A stretch of DNA of 23,465 bases from a virus. This document shows, one piece after another, positions 1,054 through 7,686 of this stretch. Within the stretch, counting starts at the first letter, position 1, and each line of letters starts with the position of its first letter. The translations under genes were made by a program, and so were the position numbers. Under the pieces are notes generated by a model. That model did no database searches, was not told the DNA's origin, and was given only the letters and a program-made list of their open reading frames with translations. The stretch lies in IMG/VR virus record IMGVR_UViG_3300025889_000970, positions 1 to 23,465 of that record. The stretch is one strand, 5' to 3'.

Positions 1054-1557
1054 ATGAACGCTGTGACCGAGCCCGTGAAGATGGGCAGGCCGACGGTGAT
1101 GTCGCGAGAACTACAGGACCAGCTCCTTGAACTGATCGCCTCCGGCACGCCGAACCGCGCGGCCTGTGCCGAGGTCGGAATTGATCCACGAACGCTCTAC
1201 TACACCGCGCAAAAGGATCTCGACTTTTTTCAGCGCTACGACACGGCCAAGAAGATGGCGGTCGACGCGCTCGTCGACAACGCGCGGGACGAGGCGCAGG
1301 CGGCCAAGCGCGCCACGAACGGCGCTCAGGTGCAGGGCCACAAGCTGGCGTGGGATCACGAATGGCGAGAGGCCCAGCGCCTTGCGCCACAGCGCTGGGG
1401 CGAGAAGGCTCAGGTCGAGCTGACCGGCAGGATCGACAGCGCCGACCCGGCAGAGATCTCGAAGCGCCTCGCCTTCATCGAGATGCTGGGCGCGGCCCAG
1501 CTCGGCGGCGACGTGACCGACGCGACCGGCGAGGACGACGACACCGGCATGGTTTAA
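1054..1557 (+). CDS. Terminase small subunit
   Basis: This 167-residue protein is the probable DNA-recognition subunit of the packaging motor. Residues about 10-50 (GRPTVMSRELQDQLLELIAS, then a 'GTPNRAACAEVGIDPRTLYY' helix-turn-helix) match the N-terminal DNA-binding domain of phage small terminases. The helical middle ends in 'W.EAQRLAPQRWGEKAQVEL', also usual in the family, and the C-terminus is acidic (TGEDDDTGMV). GGTG at 1043-1046 serves as a modest ribosome site. The large subunit lies 1.4 kb downstream, separated by a spacer, a protease gene and a small gene, which is an unusual gap for a terminase pair. It would act as an oligomeric ring that binds the packaging site and hands DNA to TerL. 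Confidence 0.85.
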   Translation: MNAVTEPVKMGRPTVMSRELQDQLLELIASGTPNRAACAEVGIDPRTLYYTAQKDLDFFQRYDTAKKMAVDALVDNARDEAQAAKRATNGAQVQGHKLAWDHEWREAQRLAPQRWGEKAQVELTGRIDSADPAEISKRLAFIEMLGAAQLGGDVTDATGEDDDTGMV

Positions 1558-1572
1558 CTGGGGCAGGGCCAA

Positions 1573-1646
1573 GCGAGACCAGCGCATCGGGCGCTGATCT
1601 GGTGTCACACAAGTGGGCATCGGCCATGAGACAGGGCTGGTCTCGC
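1573..1646. repeat. 11-bp perfect inverted repeat after the small terminase gene
   Basis: GCGAGACCAGC at 1573-1583 is the exact reverse complement of GCTGGTCTCGC at 1636-1646. A small AGCGC/GCGCT hairpin (1581-1595, five-base loop) overlaps the left arm, so the two structures compete. No T-run follows, so this is not a classical terminator. It could be a protein-binding site or an RNA structure. Confidence 0.5.
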
Positions 1647-1844
1647 AGGGTCTGAGGCTCTGGCGATACTGGTCTGGGCGGGCACCGGCTGGACCCGCGG
1701 CACCGGCCATCGGCTGGGCGGGCAGGGCGGCTGGCCGGGGCGCGCGGCGTGAGGGGGCCGGGAAAGGCCGACACCCCCCTCCGGTGGGGCCCCCTGCGCG
1801 TGGTGGGGCCCGCCGAATTAGACGAATACGAAAATTGAAACGAC

Positions 1845-1856
1845 ACACGCGCGTGT
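1845..1856. promoter_or_regulatory. Palindrome ACACGCGCGTGT upstream of the protease, possible operator
   Basis: This perfect 12-bp palindrome lies 19 bases before the protease start codon, at the edge of an AT-rich island (about 1815-1845) in otherwise GC-rich DNA. The island could hold a promoter (TTGAAA at 1835-1840 is a possible -35), but no good -10 is found at normal spacing. An operator or leader role is a guess from placement. Confidence 0.3.
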
Positions 1857-1875
1857 CGAGTAGACGGAGAACCAC

Positions 1876-2619
1876 ATGCGCCTCGCCGCTGCCGCAGTGT
1901 TTATCGCAGCCCTCGCCGCACCAGCGGCGGCCTGGACCGTCGACGACATGAACCGCCAGATCGAGAAGACGAACGTCATCGTCGGCGGGGTCTGCTCCGG
2001 CACTATCATCAACACGGCGGAACGCCTTGTGCTGACGGCCTATCACTGCATCACCGGCCAGCTCGTCGAGCAGGAGGTGAAGGAGATCGACGACAAGACG
2101 GGCGAGATCAAGACCAAGATGGTTCAGAAGAGGAAGCCCCTCGACATCTCGGTCCACAAGGTCGTCGACTATGAGATCGTCAGCACCCAATCCTACCTCG
2201 TGAAGATCGTCGGCACTGACAGCCTGAACGACATTGCGCTGCTTCAGGTCACCGACAAATCCTACACGCCGGAAATGGCCGCCACGCTTGCGCCGGATAC
2301 CTTCGTCATCAAGCGCGGCGTCAGGATCTACGCCGTCGGCAACCCCGGCATCGTCTACGACAATAGCATCACCGAGGGCATCATCTCGGCCCCGCAGCGC
2401 ACGATCAACATCGACGGCAAGGATCTCCGCTTCTTCCAGCACTCGGCATCGATCATCGGCGGCAACTCCGGCGGATCAATCCTGAACGAGGACGGCGAGC
2501 TTATCGGCACCGTGTCAGCAGGCGTTCGCGGGGCCAACATCGGCTTCGCGGTGCCGATCAGCTTCAGCAAGGATCTGATCCGCAAGGCTGGATTTGCCAA
2601 GGTTCTGGAGCAGGAATGA
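1876..2619 (+). CDS. Secreted trypsin-like serine protease
   Basis: This 247-residue protein has a signal peptide (residues 1-19, MRLAAAAVFIAALAAPAAA, likely cut before Trp20). The mature part has a chymotrypsin-fold triad: His57 in 'LVLTAYHC', Asp119 in 'SLNDIALLQV' and Ser198 in 'GGNSGG'. Cys40 and Cys58 sit where trypsins carry the disulfide beside the catalytic His, which fits a periplasmic or extracellular location. 'GFAVPISF' near the end recalls DegP/HtrA-type proteases, but no PDZ domain follows. GGAG at 1866-1869 lies six bases before the ATG. It is not a typical capsid maturation protease, which would lack a signal peptide. A role in attacking envelope proteins, excluding other phages or changing the host (a 'moron' gene) is inference. 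Confidence 0.88.
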   Translation: MRLAAAAVFIAALAAPAAAWTVDDMNRQIEKTNVIVGGVCSGTIINTAERLVLTAYHCITGQLVEQEVKEIDDKTGEIKTKMVQKRKPLDISVHKVVDYEIVSTQSYLVKIVGTDSLNDIALLQVTDKSYTPEMAATLAPDTFVIKRGVRIYAVGNPGIVYDNSITEGIISAPQRTINIDGKDLRFFQHSASIIGGNSGGSILNEDGELIGTVSAGVRGANIGFAVPISFSKDLIRKAGFAKVLEQE

Positions 2620-2813
2620 AAACGCTTTCCCTCTACCGCATGATGAACCCGAACACCTTGCGCCTCTCGGACGTCATGCCCATGCCGGAAGAAGACGAAG
2701 CGCTCATCGACGAGATCTCAAACCGCGCCAACCGCGAACACGTCATCAACAACTGGAACCTCGGCCCGGAGAAGGCGTCGGTCGACCCCAAGGAAGACAA
2801 GACCGACGATTGA
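2616..2813 (+). CDS. Small hypothetical protein coupled to the protease
   Basis: This 65-residue protein starts at an ATG overlapping the protease stop (ATGA, 2616-2619), with AGGA just upstream. It has no signal peptide and is acidic (MPEEDEALIDEISNRANREH), so it probably stays in the cytoplasm. The overlap implies coupled translation and possibly a joint role, for example holding the protease or a target, but no sequence feature supports a specific function. I do not recognise the family. Confidence 0.6.
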   Translation: MKTLSLYRMMNPNTLRLSDVMPMPEEDEALIDEISNRANREHVINNWNLGPEKASVDPKEDKTDD

Positions 2814-2871
2814 GCCAGACAACCCCGGAGACACACGACCGATCCATCCTCCTGTCGTGAAGTCTTCGGCT

Positions 2872-2906
2872 CGCAGCGGTGGGCAACTGACCCGAGGGCC
2901 GCTGCG
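2872..2906 (+). other. Hairpin in the leader of the large terminase gene
   Basis: CGCAGCGG (2872-2879) and CCGCTGCG (2899-2906) form an 8-bp stem. Inside it GGG (2881-2883) and CCC (2891-2893) can extend the structure. It lies in the 144-base gap before terL and has no T-run, so it may be an mRNA processing or stability structure, not a terminator. Confidence 0.4.
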
Positions 2907-2957
2907 CTTGCCGCTGACAAATACACAAACTGGCGGCAACCAACACAAAGGCGGCGA

Positions 2958-4520
2958 ATGACCACCACAACGGCCAGCGACCGGCTCGCCCCCTACCGGG
3001 AGCGCGTCGAGAAGGGCACGAAGAAATTCGCGAAAGAGATCATCAAGGCGACGAAGCACCTTGCCTTCATCCCTTGGCCCGGACCTCAGAGCGAAGCCTA
3101 TCTCAGCCCGGCGGACGAGATGTTCTACGGCGGCGCGGCAGGAGGCGGCAAGAGTGCGCTTCTCGTGGGGCTCGCCGTGCAGGCCCACAAGAAGAGCATC
3201 ATCTTCCGGCGTGAGTACAGCCAGATCCGTTCCATCGAGGATGAGGCCGGAAAGCTGATCGGTACTCGTGACGGTTACAACGCCACGGACAAGGTCTGGC
3301 GGCACAAGACAGGCGTCCTTGAGTTTGGCTCCGTGCCGCACGAATGGGACAAGGAAAAGTTTCAGGGGCGCGCGCACAGCTTCATCGGCTTCGACGAGAT
3401 CACGCACTTCACGTCGAGCCAGTACCGCTACCTCATCGGCTGGAACCGCTCGGACGATCCGAAGGAGCGCTGCCGGGTGGTGGTGACGGGCAACCCGCCC
3501 ACCACGGCGGAAGGCGCATGGGTGGTGCAGTACTGGGCCCCGTGGCTCGACCCCTCGCACCCCAACCCGGCGAAGCCGGGAGAGTTGAGGTGGTTCACCA
3601 CCATCAAGGGCGAGGACGTCGAGCTGGACGGCCCCGACCCGGTCGAGATCGACGGGCGCATCGTGAGGCCGAGGTCGCGGACGTTTATCGCCGCGCGGCT
3701 TGAAGACAACCCGGCTCTCGCCGACGGCAACTATGCAGCCGTCCTTGAGGCGATGCCGGAGCCGCTCCGCACGATGATGCGCGAAGGGCGCTTCGACGTT
3801 GGCCTGAAGGACGCCGACTATCAGGTGATCCCGTCAGCGTGGATCGACGAGGCGCAGCGCCGCTGGACGGCATCGCGCCCAGAGGGCGTGCCGATGACGT
3901 CAATGGGCGTCGATGTCGCGCAAGGCGGCCCGGACGAGACAGTGATTTCTTGTAGGTACGGGACTTGGTTTGATCAGTTGATCTGCCGCAAGGGCATCGA
4001 CACCAAGGACGGCCCCGCGGTGGCGGGGTTGATCGTGCAGCATCTCCGCGACGGAGCGGAGATCAACATCGACACGGGGGGCGGCTGGGGAAACAGCGCC
4101 TTCGACCACTTAAAGCACCAGAATGTGAAGATCCGAGGCGTAAACGGCGCAAGCGGGTCAAACACAAGGACGAGGGATAGGCAACTCTCCTTCGTCAACA
4201 AGCGCGCCGAGACGTGGTGGAGGTTCAGGGAAGCCCTGGACCCGGCCTACGGGTCGAAACTCGCGCTGCCACCAGATCCGGCGCTGAAAGCAGATCTCGC
4301 CTCGCCGACTTGGAAACTCACACCTCGTGGGATTCAGATCGAGAGCAAGGACGAAATTCGCAAGAGGCTCGGTCGTTCGCCTGACAAGGGCGACGCCATC
4401 GTGCTGGCGTGGGTGACGGCAGCAGAGACGTTGACGAGTGGCGCTTCGAGCGGCGTCAGAAGTTTTCAAGCGAAGGCGAAGCTCGGGTACGCCAAGATCA
4501 AAACAGCAATCAGGAGATAG
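2958..4520 (+). CDS. Terminase large subunit (packaging ATPase and nuclease)
   Basis: This 520-residue protein is the DNA-packaging motor. The N-terminal ATPase has Walker A 'GGAAGGGKS' (residues 58-66, Lys65), Walker B 'FIGFDE' with Asp146 and Glu147, and the coupling motif 'VVVTGNPP' (residues 174-181). The C-terminal RNase H-like nuclease has its acidic residues at Asp319 ('SMGVDVAQGG'), Asp372 ('INIDTGGG') and Asp476/Asp479 ('SPDKGDA'). Length and motif order are normal and nothing is missing. It would use ATP to drive DNA through the portal and cut the concatemer. Start choice: ATG 2958 after AAAGG (2947-2951), with a 144-base structured gap upstream. Confidence 0.95.
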   Translation: MTTTTASDRLAPYRERVEKGTKKFAKEIIKATKHLAFIPWPGPQSEAYLSPADEMFYGGAAGGGKSALLVGLAVQAHKKSIIFRREYSQIRSIEDEAGKLIGTRDGYNATDKVWRHKTGVLEFGSVPHEWDKEKFQGRAHSFIGFDEITHFTSSQYRYLIGWNRSDDPKERCRVVVTGNPPTTAEGAWVVQYWAPWLDPSHPNPAKPGELRWFTTIKGEDVELDGPDPVEIDGRIVRPRSRTFIAARLEDNPALADGNYAAVLEAMPEPLRTMMREGRFDVGLKDADYQVIPSAWIDEAQRRWTASRPEGVPMTSMGVDVAQGGPDETVISCRYGTWFDQLICRKGIDTKDGPAVAGLIVQHLRDGAEINIDTGGGWGNSAFDHLKHQNVKIRGVNGASGSNTRTRDRQLSFVNKRAETWWRFREALDPAYGSKLALPPDPALKADLASPTWKLTPRGIQIESKDEIRKRLGRSPDKGDAIVLAWVTAAETLTSGASSGVRSFQAKAKLGYAKIKTAIRR

Positions 4521-4968: not shown

Positions 4969-5487
4969 ATGGCGGTTTCGCTCAAGCACGCTTTTGTTTC
5001 TTCCAAGTCGGATGGTGCTGACAACACGCTTGTCCGCCCGTCGAACTGGAACGCCGAGCATACGCTGACCCTCGATGAGGACCGCGTGCTGGGCCGGGTG
5101 TCATCCGGCAACGGCGTCGCGGAGGAGCTGACGGCAGCACAACTCAGGACGCTGGCCGACGTCACGCAGACGGGTGTTCTGGGCGGCATCAACACACGCA
5201 CCGGCTCCTACACTTTGGTTGTAAGTGATCGTGGCAAGGTCATCGAAATGAATGTTGGAAGCGCCAACACGCTTACCATACCCGCGAACGCGGACGCGGC
5301 CCTGCCTGTCGGCACACAGGTGACGGTGATCCAATACGGAACTGGACAGACGACGATTGCAGCCGCCGCTGGTGTTACCCTGAACTCGCTCGCTGGGGCT
5401 CTACGGATTACGGCGCAGTACGGCGCGGCGTCGCTGTACAAGCGCAATACCAACGATTGGGTTGCCTTTGGGACGCTGACGACATGA
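4969..5487 (+). CDS. Tail fibre-associated 'SLKH' protein, copy 1
   Basis: This 172-residue protein starts three bases after the previous stop, with only a weak ribosome site, so it is probably coupled. It begins 'MAVSLKHAFVSSKSDGADN' with 'PSNWNAEHTL' at residues 24-33, a start I associate with phage tail-fibre region proteins. The C-terminal 95 residues ('GSYTLVVSDRGKVIEM', 'TLTIPANADAALPVG', 'VTVIQYGTGQTTI', 'YKRNTNDWVAFG') form a repeating beta pattern typical of a fibre-tip or adhesin module. A diverged second copy lies at 7036-7686. Its stop overlaps the next start (ATGA). A structural or receptor-binding role is likely; the exact location in the virion is unknown. Confidence 0.65.
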   Translation: MAVSLKHAFVSSKSDGADNTLVRPSNWNAEHTLTLDEDRVLGRVSSGNGVAEELTAAQLRTLADVTQTGVLGGINTRTGSYTLVVSDRGKVIEMNVGSANTLTIPANADAALPVGTQVTVIQYGTGQTTIAAAAGVTLNSLAGALRITAQYGAASLYKRNTNDWVAFGTLTT

Positions 5488-6378: not shown

Positions 6379-6612
6379 ATGCAGCCGTTGGATGTACTAG
6401 AAACCTTGATGAGGTGGGTTGTTGCGCCAGTGTGCGCTTTCGTCTGGTTTATATATCAGAGACAACAATCACATTCGCTCGACATCGCGGTGCTGAAGGC
6501 GACGACAGCCACCGCGCAAGAAGCTCACGACCGCGAGATCAAGGAAATCCGTGAAACCAGCCGCGCCATCATGGCGAAGTTGGACAGCATTGAACAGGCA
6601 CTTCGAAAGTAG
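6379..6612 (+). CDS. Small membrane protein with coiled-coil tail
   Basis: This 77-residue protein starts two bases after the previous stop and has no ribosome site, so it is likely coupled. Residues about 7-27 (ETLMRWVVAPVCAFVWFIYQ) form one transmembrane helix; residues 30-77 are a charged helix with heptad character (DIAVLKATTATAQEAHDREI, then KLDSIEQALRK). The layout resembles small holin-associated or XhlA-type proteins often found beside fibre genes, although XhlA carries its membrane helix at the other end. A lysis role is possible but unproven. Confidence 0.55.
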   Translation: MQPLDVLETLMRWVVAPVCAFVWFIYQRQQSHSLDIAVLKATTATAQEAHDREIKEIRETSRAIMAKLDSIEQALRK

Positions 6613-7035: not shown

Positions 7036-7686
7036 ATGGCTGTCAGTCTCAAGCACACCACGGTTGCCGTTGGCACAAATTCCGGTAACGGAGAGATTGC
7101 CAAGGAGGAGTGGAACGAGGAACATACCCTCACGCTTGCGACTGACCGCCTGCTTGGTCGTGCGACTGCTGGAGCGGGAGCCGTTGAGGAAATTACCTGT
7201 ACGGCGGCTGGCCGAGCATTACTTGATGACGCAGATGCCGCTGCACAATTGGCAACCCTTGGCGCTGCCCCACTGGCGTCTCCGACATTCACTGGCACAC
7301 CCGCTGCTCCTAGCGCCGCTGGGTATACCGACACCACCCAGATCGCCACTACCGCCCAGGTATACGACACAATAACCACTGTCCCTGAGAATGCCCAGAC
7401 AGGAACCACCTACACACTGGCTCTCACCGACGCTGGCAAGATGGTCACGCTCAACAATGCTTCAGCGATCACGCTCACAATCCCAACCAACGCCTCTGTC
7501 GCCTTCCCCGTCAATACGCGCATCGACATCTTCCAGTACGGTGCAGGCCAAGTCACGGTCGGCGGCGCAGGCGTGACGATCAGATCTTCTGGCTCAAAAC
7601 TCAAGCTGACGGGCCAGTACACTGGCGCCACATTGTGGAAGAAAGCCACCGACGAGTGGGCTCTCATCGGAGACATCACGACGTGA
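7036..7686 (+). CDS. Tail fibre-associated 'SLKH' protein, copy 2 with fibre linker
   Basis: This 216-residue protein is a diverged paralogue of the 4969-5487 gene. Both begin 'MAVSLKH', both have 'W(N)xEHTLTL' and 'LGR', and both end in the same beta module (here residues 121-216, 'TYTLALTDAGKMVTL', 'ALIGDITT'). Between the shared parts this copy carries an extra segment, residues 75-110, 'GAAPLASPTFTGTPAAPSAA' followed by 'TTQIATTAQV', the linker typical of phage tail fibres. It starts three bases after a TAA, with the same weak 'TAAGC.ATG' context as copy 1, and its stop overlaps the next gene (GTGA). It is probably a fibre or receptor-binding component. Confidence 0.7.
   Translation: MAVSLKHTTVAVGTNSGNGEIAKEEWNEEHTLTLATDRLLGRATAGAGAVEEITCTAAGRALLDDADAAAQLATLGAAPLASPTFTGTPAAPSAAGYTDTTQIATTAQVYDTITTVPENAQTGTTYTLALTDAGKMVTLNNASAITLTIPTNASVAFPVNTRIDIFQYGAGQVTVGGAGVTIRSSGSKLKLTGQYTGATLWKKATDEWALIGDITT

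Follow-up and report, generated by a model that had tools for sequence, protein, structure and literature searches.

On balance, the protease gene at positions 1876-2619 appears to encode a Sec-exported, PDZ-less HtrA-type enzyme whose phage-borne family is usually found in the company of lysis genes, and the enzyme would help to dismantle the envelope at lysis. The window analysed here is a whole IMG/VR record of 23,465 bases, which may be a fragment. Its gene content is that of a podovirus late region (Pfam, PHROGs): TerS, TerL, tail-fibre-like, head-tail connector, major head and tail proteins are encoded, as is an SLT-domain internal protein. A preliminary description of this DNA had placed the protease reading frame between the two terminase genes, followed through an ATGA overlap by a 65-residue frame at 2616-2813. 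Both observations were confirmed, the former by Pfam and PHROGs matches of the flanking genes. The features needed below are as follows; L numbers denote the other records used for comparison.

1054..1557, plus strand: small terminase subunit, TerS (Sf6_terminase PF20901, 3.1e-15; phrog_1482, 2.6e-20)
1558..1875, plus strand: 318-bp non-coding gap from TerS to the protease (partial DNA similarity to L017, L018 and L022)
1876..2619, plus strand: predicted secreted HtrA-like serine protease, 247 aa, ATG start (Pfam, alignment, AlphaFold)
1876..1932, plus strand: predicted signal peptide, residues 1-19, predicted cleavage A19|W20 (hydrophobicity and AxA motif, own script)
1933..1983, plus strand: conserved mature start, residues 20-36, W...DMN..I.KTN, a family hallmark (alignments)
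1993..1995, plus strand: Cys40, predicted disulfide partner of Cys58 (invariant in 32 aligned members)
2044..2049, plus strand: catalytic His57 and Cys58 (invariant in 32 aligned members)
2230..2232, plus strand: catalytic Asp119 (invariant in 32 aligned members)
2458..2475, plus strand: GGNSGG motif with catalytic Ser198 (G196, S198, G199 and G200 invariant)
2616..2813, plus strand: 65-aa ORF, which retains only the N-terminal half of a conserved 140-146-aa protein and is no dedicated protease partner (homologs at L017:2529-2966, L018:4049-4471 and L019:2925-3365)
2958..4520, plus strand: large terminase subunit, TerL (Terminase_6N PF03237, 6.3e-6; phrog_979, 2.5e-42)
6379..6612, plus strand: 77-aa protein with a transmembrane segment and coiled coil (49%-identical homolog in L013)

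The protease frame matched Trypsin_2 (3.6e-21) and Trypsin (2.4e-16) in Pfam. The H57/D119/S198 triad and the C40/C58 pair reported in the preliminary description were found intact, and all five residues are invariant over the 32 aligned members of the family. Export is likewise supported by the sequence: the N-terminus reads MRLAAAAVFIAALAAPAAA|W, with a hydrophobic core and an AxA site (own script), and the leader is conserved in the family. Its mean Kyte-Doolittle value over 11 residues is 2.72, whereas no stretch of the mature protein exceeds 1.46. When 33 members were scored by our own hydrophobicity measure, no other stretch surpassed the leader in 32 of them; in L135 the leader is about level with the remaining protein. 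No lipobox Cys follows the leader, the mature domain beginning directly after it, and no further hydrophobic segment of transmembrane strength was found in the protease. The protein was not taken for a spanin, as it carries neither a membrane nor a lipoprotein tether. Compared with its 78%-identical homolog in L018, the window protease has a dN of 0.19 and a dS of 0.83, so the gene is maintained by purifying selection; a chance origin of the reading frame can be excluded.

A structure was modeled with AlphaFold using 32 family sequences as input (pLDDT 93.9, pTM 0.87), and an HtrA/DegP/DegQ protease domain was obtained. The nearest solved domains, by sequence and by structure, are those of DegQ, DegP, DegS and other HtrA proteases; the model matches HtrA domains with a Z of 26 and an rmsd of 2.5-2.7 over 185-187 residues. 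Membership in HtrA (S1C) is indicated by a trypsin-fold domain with an HtrA-like active site (GNSGG). No PDZ domain was matched in Pfam, and the 247-aa protein ends with the protease domain. Counted from S198, trypsin's Asp189 is replaced by Ser192, which precedes the catalytic Ser by six residues, and Asp194 by Asn197, as in HtrA; trypsin-type Arg/Lys specificity and zymogen activation are therefore unexpected. The earlier label "trypsin-like" thus holds for the fold but not for the specificity. An IVGG string precedes C40. Other viral trypsin-fold proteases in the structure list, from Rhizobium phage AF3 and giant viruses, had no clear special kinship to the window protein.

Profile searches of IMG/VR and isolate records gathered a family of 37 members below 90% identity, the window included; a rescan with a 32-row profile added no members. 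Family hallmarks are the hydrophobic leader and, near the mature start, a W, an N six residues later and then I-x(2)-[TA]N, together with the motifs CSGT(L/I)I, LTxxHC and GGNSGG. The isolates represented are the Sulfitobacter phages pCB2047-A, pCB2047-C and NYA-2014a and, more distantly, the Microcystis phage Mae-JY35. Matches from Salmonella, Staphylococcus and Enterococcus were regarded as ordinary HtrA and left out; two are bacterial contigs with the annotation protease Do. A host origin found no support: a pattern scan of genome contigs, with a short and weak pattern, gave eight matches, of which those examined in full were long S46-peptidase-type proteins, and a search of 385 genomes of one class, run without a positive control, gave no match at 1e-35.

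Across unrelated phages, the protease is usually located with endolysin, holin or spanin genes. This link was first suggested by reading the neighboring genes and was tested afterwards; neighbor labels other than those checked against Pfam or PHROGs were assigned from reading the ORFs. The adjoining endolysins are of at least eight types (PF13539, PF01510, PF11860, PF00959, PF05838, PF08291, PF08924 and phrog_181-type). By Pfam and PHROGs, they are M15_4 in L003, Amidase_2 in L012, Muramidase in L014, M15_3 in L127, an Rv2525c-like protein in L138, phrog_181 in L145, GH24 in L007, L110, L116, L121, L133 and L146, and GH108 in L001 and L108. GTA_holin_3TM lies near the protease in L014 and L133, and Rz-like spanins do so in L003 and L127, with weak matches in L013, L116 and L145. 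A position-blind scan of 39 whole records was carried out for GH24, GH108, Amidase_2 and M15_3 together with the protease. An endolysin lay within 1.4 kb of the protease in 10 of the 11 distinct records bearing one (Fisher p = 5e-7 under uniform placement, a value that stands also without the two shortest records); the four families were picked after the neighbors had been read, so the choice of families is not independent, although the positions were unselected. By family, the counts within 1.4 kb were 6/6 records for GH24, 2/2 for GH108, 2/2 for Amidase_2 and 1/2 for M15_3. The sole exception is a 194-kb record in which an M15 domain is located inside a 576-residue frame.

Several further arrangements were seen around the gene. 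More than 90%-identical proteases are found beside different endolysins in L003:4991-5608 (M15_4) and L012:5691-6374 (Amidase_2), a case of endolysin exchange with retention of the protease. A gene combining an HTH and a metallophosphatase follows the protease immediately or after one intervening gene at L001:16603-17754, L013:7732-8835, L014:7738-8763, L116:7018-8250 and L209:6700-7944, and its recurrence suggests a wider conserved module; the L013 metallophosphatase is phrog_704, "DNA repair exonuclease". Another secreted protein is encoded at L108:2992-3438, upstream of the protease; judged by eye, its sequence may be ClpP/SDH-like. In L013, the homolog of the window's 77-aa protein is encoded upstream of the protease, at a distance of about 1 kb, and has a weak Rz-like spanin match. 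In the window itself, two paralogous tail-fibre-like modules (4969-5487 and 7036-7686, 35% identity) stand on either side of a Gly-rich protein and this 77-aa membrane protein.

Proximity to TerL is not general. Its p value for PF03237 was 0.014, driven by the window and L018, and among the records that match PF03237, half have TerL 15 to 96 kb from the protease. A terminase-specific function was rejected on these grounds, and placement between the terminase genes, noted in the preliminary description for the window, fails as a family rule; the general rule is closeness to endolysin, holin or spanin genes. Five members are found near ribonucleotide reductase (RNR) instead (L106, confirmed by Pfam; L107, L109, L111 and L141, from reading), and several have no informative neighbor. 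In the 23,465 bases of the window, which may be incomplete, scans for GH24, GH108, Amidase_2 and M15_3 recognised no endolysin, nor was a holin recognised; the window's link to lysis is therefore one of kinship.

That kinship was traced in a tree. The window clade comprises L018, L007 and L145 (support 97/91), of which L145 and L007 belong to the lysis-linked members; the protease and lysozyme genes of L007 abut. The RNR-linked L106 and L107 stand next to the window clade (100/99). On the best tree the lysis label changes 11 times, and at least 6 changes are forced by well-supported branches, so the label is scattered and the lysis link is not one inherited neighborhood. Either repeated recruitment or repeated loss would account for this scatter. 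The deep branching order is unsure because of the long branches of L001 and L141.

The preliminary description had regarded the protease and the 65-residue protein as a cargo pair and had proposed that related genomes be searched for it between TerS and TerL. When L017, L019, L022 and L018 were checked, the pair was not kept in them. The first three have a TerL about 80% identical to that of the window and encode, between TerS and TerL, a 145-146-aa protein whose N-terminal half corresponds to the 65-aa ORF (55-56% identity); over the L017, L018 and L019 homologs listed above, identity across this half is 50-56%. In the stretch of the terminase region sampled from L017, L019 and L022, the protease is missing, which supports its being an accessory gene. 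L018 has a 140-aa version as well as the 78%-identical protease, the latter two small genes further downstream and overlapping TerL. As the 140-146-aa gene occurs without the protease or in another order, the two genes are inherited separately, and the 65-aa ORF is better described as a truncated protein of the terminase neighborhood. The missing C-terminal half of its homologs carries a conserved Cys cluster (CANCEY...GYCTKFDFIC), of which no convincing match was found in any frame of window positions 1558-3100. The 140-146-aa protein matched no family when its L017 copy was compared with Pfam and its L018 copy with PHROGs.

Minus-strand serine recombinases of two types are encoded between TerS and TerL at L017:1222-1830, L018:2989-3624 and L019:931-1752, and an HNH-like gene also occurs inside this interval in L019; the interval is therefore a variable insertion spot. 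The TerL genes have insertions of their own: that of the closest relative (L018:5681-8365) holds an intein-like insert at the Walker A motif (GGGK | RLDIDTE...HN | TAMLVG), and the TerL frame at L110:2956-5562 matches LAGLIDADG and Hom_end domains. Just 5' of the protease start in the window, at 1841-1858, is the perfect hairpin CGACACACGCGCGTGTCG, terminator-like on the minus strand only. Between window positions 1500 and 3000, no sigma-70-like site was found, and terminator-like sites were found on the minus strand only; the idea of an independent moron with its own promoter and terminator was dropped for these reasons.

In the mechanism that we favor, the protease would be made late, together with the lysis and packaging proteins, and the signal peptide would carry it across the inner membrane by Sec. 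A Cys40-Cys58 disulfide would stabilise it outside the cytoplasm, where it may cut envelope or periplasmic proteins. Such cleavage could act together with endolysin, holin and spanins in the final disruption of the envelope, or determine when this occurs. In the window phage, the gene would have been shuffled into the TerS-TerL interval. A lysis function of the family seems plausible from its sequences and surroundings. Counted for it were the predicted fold, the triad, the conserved leader and Cys pair, the purifying selection and the association with lysis genes; counted against it were the lack of a recognised endolysin or holin in the window, the five RNR-linked members and the members with no informative neighbor. 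For the T4 antiholin RI, breakdown by host DegP has been considered, yet lysis inhibition was unchanged when degP was deleted (PMC8385771), and this precedent is weak for that reason.

The preliminary description had suggested that the enzyme is cargo that alters the host surface or excludes competing phages, which it might do by degrading receptors. We consider this rather unlikely. The export leader and intact active site would suit such a role, as would the accessory distribution of the gene and the five members among nucleotide-metabolism genes, which are likely expressed before lysis; regions beside lysis genes, moreover, are common sites for cargo genes. Set against these points are the recurrence of the lysis neighborhood with unrelated endolysins, the loss of the 65-aa ORF as a partner and the behavior of the Sulfitobacter phages. 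The proteases of phages A and D (D being equated with NYA-2014a on the basis of the SUFP locus tags) are identical over 222/222 residues, yet phage A infects D lysogens and phage D infects A lysogens (PMC7305329). The cross-infection argues against an effective exclusion factor in lysogens and weakens the exclusion proposal, while exclusion during lytic growth is unaddressed by it. Because the same gene is usually beside lysis genes in related phages, a lysis helper is likelier than anti-competitor cargo.

It is unlikely that the enzyme serves envelope quality control, as an extra HtrA that, during infection, removes host stress regulators or misfolded proteins of the periplasm or outer membrane and has no direct part in lysis. 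The HtrA-type domain is compatible with this function, and the RNR-adjacent copies in some phages would fit a role in mid-infection, but the protein lacks the PDZ domain that is the regulator in DegP/DegS-type proteins, and the linkage to lysis genes is strong. Extracellular use after lysis, in which virions are freed from debris, biofilm or S-layer, is quite improbable: a secreted, soluble, single-domain enzyme encoded with lysis genes could act in this way, but it has no retention or adhesion domain, and sequence cannot separate such use from help in lysis. A head-maturation or virion protease of the packaging operon is very improbable despite the TerS-TerL position in the window and the contact with TerL in L018, since the conserved export leader, the S1/HtrA fold (not the S78, S14 or U9 prohead type) and the frequent distance from TerL all speak against it, in agreement with the preliminary description.

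Lysis of Gram-negative hosts is described as the work of holin, endolysin and spanin on three layers. It is possible, though doubtful at present, that one enzyme of lysis in Gram-negative phages has been overlooked beside these three: an HtrA-type protease, exported by Sec, that would cleave proteins of the envelope as infection ends, such as a regulator of lysis or the links between peptidoglycan and outer membrane, and that was repeatedly recruited beside unrelated endolysins. A proteolytic step would then be added to lysis, hidden so far under the labels "protease" or "hypothetical". In the open-licence literature, no proposal of a lysis role for the protease was found, nor was any function found proposed for the Sulfitobacter phage protease. 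Since there are cultured carriers (Sulfitobacter phages A, C and D; Microcystis phage Mae-JY35), the lysis role is directly testable. Even if the enzyme proves to be a modifier of the host envelope, the family offers clean material for the question of why HtrA-like enzymes are exported by phages.

Among known systems, the closest are the HtrA/DegP/DegQ/DegS domains (MEROPS S1C, PF13365), which have in common with the phage protease the fold, the order of the triad, GNSGG, the Asn before the catalytic Ser and periplasm-type export. The phage protease differs from them in lacking PDZ domains, in its invariant Cys pair at chymotrypsin positions 42/58 and in its phage-specific mature start; identities in structural alignments are 20-33%. 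The proteases of Sulfitobacter phages pCB2047-A, pCB2047-C and NYA-2014a (SUAG_00063, SUBG_00019 and SUFP_011), annotated "Protease" or "putative peptidase/serine protease" and presumably within phrog_9683, have the leader, Cys pair and triad of the window protein at about 31% identity. Their genes differ from the window's in site, being in a lysis cassette (endolysin, small genes including a holin, XhlA-like, protease, metallophosphatase) rather than the terminase interval. Mae-JY35 XAI96534.1, annotated as a hypothetical protein, has a signal peptide, CSGTL, HC and GGNSGG in common with the family but is distant (28% to L136), and the window protein as query does not find it directly. Its gene order, named by reading, is an amidase with LysM, a small holin-like transmembrane protein, Rz-like, Rz1-like lipoprotein, XhlA-like, protease and metallophosphatase. 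With the spanins (Rz/Rz1), finally, the protease would have in common the step proposed for it, in which the envelope of the Gram-negative host is disrupted at lysis; spanins are not enzymes and are tethered to membranes, whereas the protease is predicted to be an enzyme with no tether. Spanins and the protease occur together in L003, L127 and Mae-JY35, so the protease is not simply a spanin substitute.
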